From: an uncultured bacterium
Lineage (GTDB): Bacteria; Patescibacteriota; Saccharimonadia; Saccharimonadales; Saccharimonadaceae
Assembly (NCBI GenBank): GCA_903900345.1
Contig: CAIUMO010000008.1
Span: 1 to 39,461, forward strand
DNA: 39,461 nucleotides
Reading direction: 5' to 3'
Shown piece by piece: positions 14,177 through 17,418 of the stretch. The position numbers and the translations under genes are program-made. The notes under the pieces are model-generated. The model searched no databases. It was not told the origin of the DNA and saw only the letters and a program-made list of their open reading frames with translations. The first letter of the stretch is position 1. Each line of letters starts with the position of its first letter.

Positions 14177-15370
14177 TCACTTAGAGACACGGAAACCAAT
14201 AGCTGAGCTCGAACCGGTAGGCAAATAATCTAAGAATAAAGCAAAGACTCCAGCACTACCGTGGTCCCACCAGTTGCCGCCACGCCTAAATGGACGCGTA
14301 GACGTATCGCCACTATTAGAATAAAGCTGCCCAATTCCCTGAGTTGAACTCCAACCACTGGCGCCAGATATACCGGTAAAGCTAGGTAAAGCATTAGCAG
14401 GTAGGCCATTCCTAAGTAATGAGCCGTTATTCCATTGCTTAGAAGAATAAGCTACCTCGCCCGACAAACCAGGCTGTTGACCACTAGCCAATGTACTATT
14501 CGTCCAATCATAAACATTGCCTGCCAAATCCCAAATCACTTCTCCGTTAGATAATCTCAAAGTACGACGTTGATCCGCACCTGAAGACGATGAGTCACCT
14601 GTGCCGATATAGCCATTACCGTCATTAGTATCAGCTGCCAGTGCATTAGCTGGTACGTTGTCATTATGCCCACTATAAATATAACTAGAGCCAACTGATC
14701 CGCCACTCCAGTTTGAAGCAATATTGAGAACATTTTGAGCTATTGTTAACCATTCGGTTTCAGTAATCAAGTGACAACCGGTACAGCCAGCTACATTAGG
14801 GCTGTTAGCTATAGCGGTAGTCTGTGAGATAGATGTCCAAGGCAATCCTGCTGCTTGGCTAATAGGTGTAGTAGTTGAACCAACCTGTTTAGCTTCGTAT
14901 TTCATGACACAGAAGTCAGAAGTGCCATAGGTACTGCTGCCAGGTACAACAATGAAGTTAAGTGGGCAGACTAGGCTAACTGGTGTTGGTGTAGTGTTAG
15001 AGTCAGTTAGACGATAGTTGTTAGTGGCATTGTTATTATTAGAGCTAATGAGACTAAAGGATTGGTAGTCAGTTGGATTGGGTTGGTAGGTTAGAGTGTT
15101 ATTGGGACTAGACTTCAGACAGATGTTAGGTGGCGTTGGCGAACTAGCGCAGTTATTGGTTTGCGGGTAGTTACCGTTATCTATGGAATAGAGCTTTAAC
15201 TGTTGAGAAGCATTAGCTAGATCAGATTGTAAGGCAGAGTTAGTGGCTCTTTGAGCTATACCGGTATAGCTGACGATGGTTATGGCGGCGAGGACACCGA
15301 TAACTACTATTACTACGAGGAGTTCGACGATGGTGAAGCCAGGAGAGTAAGAACGGTTTTTAGATGCCAT
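14177..15370 (-). CDS. Type IV pilin-like protein with C-terminal FGE/C-type-lectin-like domain
   Basis: This is a 397-residue minor pilin. The type III signal is short: MASKNRSYSPG then FTIVELLVVIVVIGVLAA, with prepilin peptidase cutting after Gly11 and Glu at +5. The C-terminal half matches the formylglycine-generating enzyme/sulfatase-modifying-factor fold: FCVMKYEAKQ, HLITETEWLTIAQNV, GNVYDWTNS, RRGGNWW and the terminal IGFRV. The fold is a C-type-lectin variant, so binding is more likely than catalysis. I chose the ATG at 15370 over one at 15412 because a GAGG ribosome-binding site precedes it, and it overlaps the upstream stop by 11 bp. The extreme C-terminus resembles a DGR variable region (see the separate entry). 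Confidence 0.85.
   Translation of the reverse strand: MASKNRSYSPGFTIVELLVVIVVIGVLAAITIVSYTGIAQRATNSALQSDLANASQQLKLYSIDNGNYPQTNNCASSPTPPNICLKSSPNNTLTYQPNPTDYQSFSLISSNNNNATNNYRLTDSNTTPTPVSLVCPLNFIVVPGSSTYGTSDFCVMKYEAKQVGSTTTPISQAAGLPWTSISQTTAIANSPNVAGCTGCHLITETEWLTIAQNVLNIASNWSGGSVGSSYIYSGHNDNVPANALAADTNDGNGYIGTGDSSSSGADQRRTLRLSNGEVIWDLAGNVYDWTNSTLASGQQPGLSGEVAYSSKQWNNGSLLRNGLPANALPSFTGISGASGWSSTQGIGQLYSNSGDTSTRPFRRGGNWWDHGSAGVFALFLDYLPTGSSSAIGFRVSK
14180..14285 (-). other. DGR variable-region-like C-terminal segment of the FGE-type pilin
   Basis: The last ~35 codons encode RRGGNWWDHGSAGVFALF, then LDYLPTGSSSAIGFRVSK. This follows the pattern I recall for C-type-lectin targets of diversity-generating retroelements, in which a conserved scaffold (GGNW, AGVFAL, L, P, IGFR) is interrupted by positions that are Asn in the template. 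Here those positions hold F (ttc), D (gat), Y (tat), G (ggt), S (agc) and A (gct), most of which can arise from AAC/AAT by changes at adenines only. No template repeat or reverse transcriptase is present in the window, so this is a resemblance and not a demonstrated DGR. Confidence 0.45.
15246..15342. repeat. 97-bp direct repeat, copy 1 (pilin N-terminus coding)
   Basis: By eye it is identical over 97 bp to 16246-16342, exactly 1,000 bp away. It encodes the conserved prepilin helix and the following TGIAQRA segment. A third, diverged version lies at about 17300-17400. Confidence 0.9.
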
Positions 15371-16379
15371 AGCGACCTCGAAGGAAATTAAAGTTTTGAT
15401 TAACTTCATCAACAGATAGGGCTCGATTATAAACTGCTAGATTTGCTAGATTTCCCTTCCAAAATCCATAACAAATAATAGTCCTACAACCTAGATTCAT
15501 ATTAGTAGCCGCTGGAAAGTTTCCAGAGACTGCTCGCTGATAAACCAATACGCCATTTTTATAAGATTTGGCGTTCGCACCGTCAAAAGTCAATGCTATG
15601 TAGTCCCATTGTGATCCGTTATGTATAAATATCACATCACCAGACACAAAGCCACCTTGACCGTACCATTGGTAAGTATTAGCTCCAGCTTGTTCAACTC
15701 TCGATGCAGTACCGTCAACTCCCGTATCAATCGTTAGCACGTCAGACCATGCGCCAGGGCTATTATCTTTAATAAAGAAGCTAATAGTTCCATTAGTGCC
15801 ACTCAATTTGTTAGGAATAACAGCATAATCGTCAATCCCATCAAAAATTAAATATCCTTTATTAGCGCTACTATAGCCAACCCCACCATACAAAGTCCCA
15901 CTATTACCACCTCCACTCAAATCAGTCCAGGTAGTACCAGAGCCAGGGTATGAGGTTGGATTGCCAGCGTCTAGGTTAAGGACTGGGCAGATGCCAGGTG
16001 ATATAACACCATCTTGGGTTGTATTATAGTTTTGGCCACTTTTGGCAGCACTCAGGCAAAAGGTAGGTGGATTAGTTGTAGAGCTAACTGTATAAGCAAG
16101 AGTGGTGCTCGAATCTACAGTTATACCTCTAGCGCCATTAGCTAAAGCTAAGCTAGCTGGGTAGTTATTAGAACTGTCGACAACTTGATCGAGCTTTAGC
16201 TTTTTAGCAACATTGTCTAAATCGACTGAAAGTGATGAGGTAATAGCTCTTTGAGCTATACCGGTATAGCTGACGATGGTTATGGCGGCGAGGACACCGA
16301 TAACTACTATTACTACGAGGAGTTCGACGATGGTGAAGCCAGAGGAATGATTAAGTCTATTATGATTATTTCGTAGCAT
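15360..16379 (-). CDS. Type IV pilin-like protein with LamG/ConA-like domain
   Basis: This is a 339-residue minor pilin. The prepilin signal ends at Gly14, followed by FTIVELLVVIVVIGVLAA with Glu at +5. After a variable pilin head comes a LamG/concanavalin-A-type jelly roll (about 160-339), marked by LIFDGIDDYAVIPN and ending in NLAVYNRALSVDEVNQNF, a typical LamG_3 terminus. Such domains bind carbohydrate or protein. It overlaps the stop of the upstream pilin by 14 bp and the start of the downstream pilin by 11 bp. AAAGG is the ribosome-binding site. The first ~97 bp of the helix-coding region are identical to the downstream gene. Confidence 0.85.
   Translation of the reverse strand: MLRNNHNRLNHSSGFTIVELLVVIVVIGVLAAITIVSYTGIAQRAITSSLSVDLDNVAKKLKLDQVVDSSNNYPASLALANGARGITVDSSTTLAYTVSSTTNPPTFCLSAAKSGQNYNTTQDGVISPGICPVLNLDAGNPTSYPGSGTTWTDLSGGGNSGTLYGGVGYSSANKGYLIFDGIDDYAVIPNKLSGTNGTISFFIKDNSPGAWSDVLTIDTGVDGTASRVEQAGANTYQWYGQGGFVSGDVIFIHNGSQWDYIALTFDGANAKSYKNGVLVYQRAVSGNFPAATNMNLGCRTIICYGFWKGNLANLAVYNRALSVDEVNQNFNFLRGRYGI
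16246..16342. repeat. 97-bp direct repeat, copy 2 (pilin N-terminus coding)
   Basis: This copy is identical to 15246-15342. The perfect match at synonymous sites suggests recent duplication or gene conversion. Recombination between the copies would delete 1 kb and fuse the LamG pilin signal to the FGE-type head. Confidence 0.9.
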
Positions 16380-17418
16380 TGTAAACAGCCTTTATTTGAT
16401 CGGCCGAAAGGGCTTGACCATAGATTCTGACACTCTTAATTAATCCTGGGAAATCTCCATTACCGTTAGGACATGCACTTGCGGCCGCTTCTGATAAGAA
16501 TATACCACCCGTGTCAGGGCTGATAGGCACGGCAGGGACCGACTTTGATGACATTAAAACACCCTCCAAATAATACTGCTTGGATCCAGTACTGTCATAA
16601 ACAACTGTCAAATTAGACCACGTATTCATCGGCAAGACTGAACCTGATGGCCACCACCTATCAGACGTTCCGGTGCCAGTGTCCCAAGCAATTCTTCTGT
16701 CTTCTTCGAGTACTATATCAAAACCAATCCAACTACCACTAGTCGCCGAACTAGTGCGTATAAGCGATCGCCAATTGTTATTAGCGTCACAATCTGGATT
16801 ATCTCTTATGTAATACCATACAGACACTGTCACACTACCAGTTCTTAATGACGCACTATCGGCTATCTGAACATAATCATCCAAACCGTCAAAGCTCATC
16901 GATCCGCCACCACTATTACTATAGGTAATGCCATTCAATAGTGTACCGTTATTATCATTACCGCTCATATCACGCCAGGTTGTGCCAGTGCCAGAATACG
17001 AGAATGGGCTGCTAGCATTAATGTCTAGGACTGGACATGGGCTATTAAGCAACTGCCCGTCCTGGTTGACACTATAGGTTTTATTATTAGCACTATTAAT
17101 CGCTTCAAGGCAGAATATATTAAGATTAGTCAAGCTAGTTTTGTAATTATACGAGTTACCACCGCTATATCTCAAACATTTATTAGTTGAGCTATCAGGC
17201 TGACTACAATTTATAGTGCTCGGGTATGCGCTGTTAACTACTTGAAATAACTTGATCTGCTTTTGAGAGTTTCCCAGATCTGACTGCAATGAAGCAGCGA
17301 CCGCCCGTTGGTTAATGCCGGTATAGCTGACAATGGTTATGGCGGCAAGAATACCGACGACCACTATGACGACTAATAATTCGACAATCGTAAAGCCATA
17401 ATGCTCACGCTTTTGCAT
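16366..17418 (-). CDS. Type IV pilin-like protein with LamG/ConA-like domain, first gene of the pilin operon
   Basis: In this 350-residue protein the leader MQKREHYG is cut before FTIVELLVVIVVVGILAA, with Glu at +5. The pilin head (about 40-140) contains paired cysteines (INCSQPDSSTNKC, FCLEA). A LamG-like domain follows (about 165-350: SMSFDGLDDYVQIADS, VTVSVWYYIRD, IKSVRIYGQALSADQIKAVY). It is probably a surface-presented adhesin or minor pilin. Its own promoter box (TGC-TATAAT, six bases before the ATG) lies downstream of the nusA stop, and it leads the three-pilin operon through overlapping stops and starts. Confidence 0.86.
   Translation of the reverse strand: MQKREHYGFTIVELLVVIVVVGILAAITIVSYTGINQRAVAASLQSDLGNSQKQIKLFQVVNSAYPSTINCSQPDSSTNKCLRYSGGNSYNYKTSLTNLNIFCLEAINSANNKTYSVNQDGQLLNSPCPVLDINASSPFSYSGTGTTWRDMSGNDNNGTLLNGITYSNSGGGSMSFDGLDDYVQIADSASLRTGSVTVSVWYYIRDNPDCDANNNWRSLIRTSSATSGSWIGFDIVLEEDRRIAWDTGTGTSDRWWPSGSVLPMNTWSNLTVVYDSTGSKQYYLEGVLMSSKSVPAVPISPDTGGIFLSEAAASACPNGNGDFPGLIKSVRIYGQALSADQIKAVYNATK

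Follow-up and report, generated by a model that had tools for sequence, protein, structure and literature searches.

The window analyzed here, a 39,461-nucleotide contig (C8) from an uncultured member of the Saccharimonadaceae, belongs to a genome assembly (G000) of 788 kb in 29 contigs that is 97.4% complete. On its minus strand, an open reading frame at 14177..15412 encodes a protein that begins with a prepilin signal and ends in a head of the formylglycine-generating enzyme (FGE) type of C-type lectin (CLec). As listed, the frame opens with a TTG codon at 15412; judging from the upstream DNA, the true start is likely an ATG near 15370 (MASKNRSYSPG/FTIVELL), which overlaps the stop codon of the upstream gene. 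The signal, GFTIVELLVVIVVIG, was matched in profile searches by N_methyl (PF07963) with 26.2 bits, above the cut-off, and by TIGR02532 above its own cut-off, and is thus a class III prepilin signal. The head comprises residues 147-411 of the frame (14180..14974, minus strand) and was delimited by PF03781, a structural model, and a fold match; the PF03781 score of 18.7 bits lies under the cut-off of 23.3, so the protein is not assigned to that family. Translation of the minus strand ends in RPFRRGGNWWDHGSAGVFALFLDYLPTGSSSAIGFRVSK, followed by the stop codon, which is the FGE-like C-terminal scaffold reported by the first-pass annotation. Directly upstream on the same strand lie two prepilin genes with overlapping ends (15360..17418) and ConA-like (LamG) heads, for which PF07963 and PF13385 both exceed their cut-offs, and clpC follows the FGE pilin gene. 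On sequence grounds, 15360-17418 and the FGE pilin constitute a predicted minor-pilin cluster whose members carry different binding heads. Among named records, the FGE pilin has its nearest homologs in Candidatus Saccharibacteria.

The model of residues 147-411 reached a pLDDT of 95.2 and a pTM of 0.93. Its best structural match was TaqVP (Z of 20.0 over 222 residues at 2.9 Å), well ahead of TvpA (Z of 14.2), Mtd (Z of about 13.4), and the FGE enzymes (Z near 13). In TaqVP, the variable region is the extreme C-terminus of the protein (PMC6328139). The modeled window protein is thereby predicted to possess the FGE/CLec fold with a variable face at its C-terminus, the fold and position found in the variable proteins of this subtype that are served by diversity-generating retroelements (DGRs; TaqVP, 5vf4; TvpA, 2y3c; Mtd, 1yu0-1yu4). 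Unlike those proteins, the window head sits on a prepilin stem, and a reverse transcriptase (RT), Avd, and template were not found in G000. With the formylglycine-generating enzyme itself (SUMF1, PF03781) it shares the overall fold (Z of about 13), but the PF03781 match is weak and below cut-off, the fold match is poorer than that to TaqVP, and the domain is borne by a pilin. Type IV pilins and pseudopilins (PF07963, TIGR02532) have the same prepilin signal over the curated cut-off, whereas in this predicted pilin-like protein a large FGE head replaces the usual globular domain.

The last 38 codons of the gene (14180..14293, minus strand) align without gaps, codon by codon, to the DGR templates of four related genomes (G201, G186, G064, and G117). 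From these templates, ten columns were defined in which the template reads AAC or AAT (AAY columns), together spanning 14201..14275 on the minus strand. In order, the window gene encodes N (14273-14275), W (TGG, 14267-14269), D (14264-14266), S (14255-14257), F (14234-14236), D (14228-14230), Y (14225-14227), G (14213-14215), S (14207-14209), and A (14201-14203). Across 35 homologs, mean entropy was 3.02 bits at the AAY columns, compared to 1.23 bits at other columns of the variable region and 1.47 bits in the upstream FGE domain; the residues that had been called variable from the letters alone thus sit on hypervariable columns. It had also been noted that most of the corresponding codons can arise from AAC or AAT by adenine changes, with TGG as the exception. 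Both observations are correct, and TGG at 14267-14269 is indeed unreachable by this route. Nine of the ten window codons at AAY columns end in C or T, compared to 64% of the codons elsewhere in the FGE domain (p = 0.08). As proof of DGR diversification this codon pattern by itself was rejected, as it is weak and not significant; it is the comparison with relatives that makes the observation count as real.

Used as a query, the full protein gave hits in 114 of 151 genomes of the family, many of them over the pilin N-terminus only, and a family-level search found RVT_1 in 61 of 199 relatives. In G064, G117, G105, G186 (twice), G201, and an IMG/VR contig (L181), an RT encoded on the opposite strand lies about 1 to 1.5 kb downstream of the homolog; an Avd-like gene separates target and RT, and the template lies beyond the RT. 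In G064, Avd scores above the curated cut-off of NF033474 (DGR protein Avd) and the RT matches RVT_1. Over the last 114 bases, mismatches between template and variable region fell at template adenines in 18/18, 16/16, 20/20, 9/9, 12/12, and 10/11 cases, or 85 of 86 in the six pairs, and the L181 pair gave 16/16. The sister genomes G117 and G105 have identical templates and differ over about 5.2 kb of the DGR locus by 13 substitutions, all within the variable region and 12 of them at template adenines; apart from these, only a CT repeat close to the gene start differs, by a 4-bp indel. This pattern strongly indicates, on sequence evidence, that a DGR has recently acted on a prepilin-FGE target. 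A prepilin motif stands at the start of all four targets in G064, G117, G105, and G156. Judged by their sequences, these homologs in related Saccharibacteria are genuine DGR targets. The majority of the homologs examined have no linked RT, and those of G140 and G127 display no adenine bias.

Several further features were observed around these cassettes. DGR-linked pilin genes carry CT/TC repeats of 10 to 14 units close to their start, ahead of the prepilin signal (L088:4103-4130 and L098:7226-7245), and the 4-bp difference between G117 and G105 could reflect phase variation added to DGR mutagenesis. On other contigs of G186 (L122) and G201 (L134), variable regions resemble the template of the same genome, with mismatches at 15/28 adenine and 3/89 other positions and at 20/29 and 5/88 positions, respectively; one template may serve several pilins. 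Possible mobile-element genes neighbor the cassettes of relatives (L098:4341-6059 and L087:8166-10531): a serine recombinase (PF00239) in G156 and, as called by eye, conjugation-like membrane proteins in G064. Related FGE heads accompanied by an RT and by template pairs with 0 to 4 non-adenine mismatches were also seen in Candidatus Forterrea, DPANN archaea (L161, L164), and in the predatory Bacteriovoracaceae and Oligoflexia (L144, L175). As a possible mark of DGR targets, a hairpin following the stop codon on its 3' side was rejected, being present in G064, G186:C30, G186:C12, and G156 but absent in the DGR-linked G117, G105, and G201.

The window lacks both RT and template, as the first-pass annotation had remarked, and this absence extends to the whole G000 assembly. 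No RT was detected there by RVT_1 or by protein search with a DGR RT, and no Avd by PF05635 and NF033474. NF033474 gave no match in 14 control genomes, and the run over the genus, in which Avd was found in other genomes, served as its positive control. No template repeat was recovered from G000 by BLAST or by patterns that let each base of the variable region also be A, both of which matched only the variable regions themselves. From these searches, RT, Avd, and template are likely absent from the organism. Since the assembly lacks about 3% of the genome and relatives frequently have their DGR loci at the ends of contigs, a cassette may have gone unseen.

The C-terminal scaffold occurs in two genes of G000, which differ in how strongly they bear the imprint of adenine mutagenesis. 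Compared to the G201 template, the window gene differs at 17 of 28 adenine positions and 33 of 86 others (p = 0.03), and across the four templates its bias is weak (p of 0.01 to 0.05), with TGG in one of the ten AAY columns. About 38% of the non-adenine template positions differ, which is no better than the remainder of the gene. The second gene (L053, G000:C19:3546-5087, minus strand) encodes another FGE-type variable pilin, with its variable region at G000:C19:3549-3671 and an inserted F5/8 type C domain, and likewise has no template in G000. Against the G201 template it differs at 23 of 28 adenine positions and 17 of 86 others (p = 4e-9), and every one of its AAY-column codons ends in C or T. 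Neither gene has an adenine bias upstream of the variable region. By this comparison, the C19 gene looks recently diversified and the window gene looks like an older or weaker case.

The same columns were compared between homologs with and without a linked DGR, where "without" means none within the DNA stretch available around each gene. K, E, Q, M, and W together occupied 0 of 80 positions at AAY columns in DGR-linked genes and were depleted in the others (15 of 270; 5.6% versus 13.1%), and four-fold codons there ended in C or T in 24 of 24 and 73 of 101 cases, respectively. For unlinked genes, both figures are intermediate between those of DGR-linked genes and the background, which is what decay would predict. 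As the genes compared share descent, p-values for these columns serve as a guide only. Within the genus, the closest FGE homolog, that of G156 (71%), lies beside an intact-looking RT; its avd gene changes frame behind a run of G and so falls into two parts, where a sequencing error is possible, and no template was found in the G156 assembly. This locus could be a decaying intermediate. The window locus was not syntenic with any of the DGR-bearing loci examined, including that of G156. Loss of a DGR from the window locus itself was considered but found no support, as clpC, nusA, and the other neighbors lie beside no homolog examined and the pilin N-termini alone matched. A viral origin was also set aside: IMG/VR holds 11 homologs, one of them (L181) with a full cassette, and nothing links the window to a virus.

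We hold with moderate confidence, on comparative sequence grounds, that the window gene is a DGR-type variable minor pilin that is probably no longer diversified in its source organism. The proposal that its C-terminus resembles a DGR variable region is thus borne out as far as homology to the real variable regions of relatives and the fold match to TaqVP are concerned; the idea of a current target finds no support, with RT, Avd, and template undetected in a 97.4%-complete assembly, TGG at one of the ten AAY columns, and a weak adenine bias. Sequence comparison shows that, in several related Saccharibacteria, adenine-directed mutagenic retrohoming from a cassette of target, Avd, convergent RT, and template remodels this C-terminal face. 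The window gene would most likely have inherited a face so diversified from an ancestor, while RT, Avd, and template were not found in the assembly, and that face may now be fixed and either retained or drifting as part of an ordinary adhesin. Given the prepilin signal and the fold, prepilin peptidase would cleave the protein, which would enter the pilus as a minor subunit and bind a cell-surface ligand through its C-terminal face; adhesion at the pilus tip is plausible for such a predicted structure.

The clean imprint in the C19 paralog, with its excess of template-adenine differences and its uniform C/T endings, suggests recent activity and is what would be expected if a cassette missing from the assembly, or present in other strains only, were still rewriting both G000 genes in trans. 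The variable regions on other contigs of G186 and G201 that resemble the template of their own genome, as well as the relatives' contigs that stop at DGR parts, point the same way. Several searches of the nearly complete assembly nevertheless found nothing, and neither TGG nor the extent of non-adenine differences in the window gene fits an active target; we therefore regard active rewriting in trans as unlikely. Less probable still, and in our judgment doubtful, is that the gene was never a target, but an ordinary FGE/CLec minor pilin whose loops vary by selection and recombination among paralogs, the DGRs of relatives having recruited a pre-existing loop. Such a history would agree with the many homologs that lack a linked RT, with the unbiased G140 and G127 genes, and with the weak bias and nonsignificant codon pattern of the window gene. 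It fits poorly with the unlinked genes, where the shortage of K, E, Q, M, and W and the enrichment of C/T third bases are the expected fossil of adenine mutagenesis, with the C19 imprint, and with the nearest solved folds, which are DGR variable proteins.

DGRs, their CLec targets, and their enrichment in CPR bacteria are known (PMC8144416). In the largest survey, the targets of CPR clade 2 DGRs were described as typically without recognizable transmembrane or other conserved domains, for a reason left undecided (PMC8144416). The homologous Saccharibacteria pilins are likewise targets of complete cassettes but carry a prepilin motif. Putative pilin structures have been mentioned among DUF1566-type targets (PMC6642488). 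The searched literature, from which most subscription papers were missing, contained no account of prepilin-FGE targets of DGRs in Saccharibacteria or of copies of them without RT, and an earlier description is possible. Overall, we lean slightly toward a broader picture in which the DGRs of Saccharibacteria serve to hypermutate type IV minor-pilin heads, sometimes on several dispersed pilins per template, and lineages that lose the RT keep frozen, diversified pilins as adhesins; the window gene would belong to such a frozen set, or else be a remote target of a cassette that the assembly lacks. Targets that combine a prepilin signal with an FGE/CLec head point to the pilus surface of these host-dependent bacteria as the thing that is diversified and make host recognition by episymbionts directly testable, and the window gene would add a case of what remains without the retroelement.
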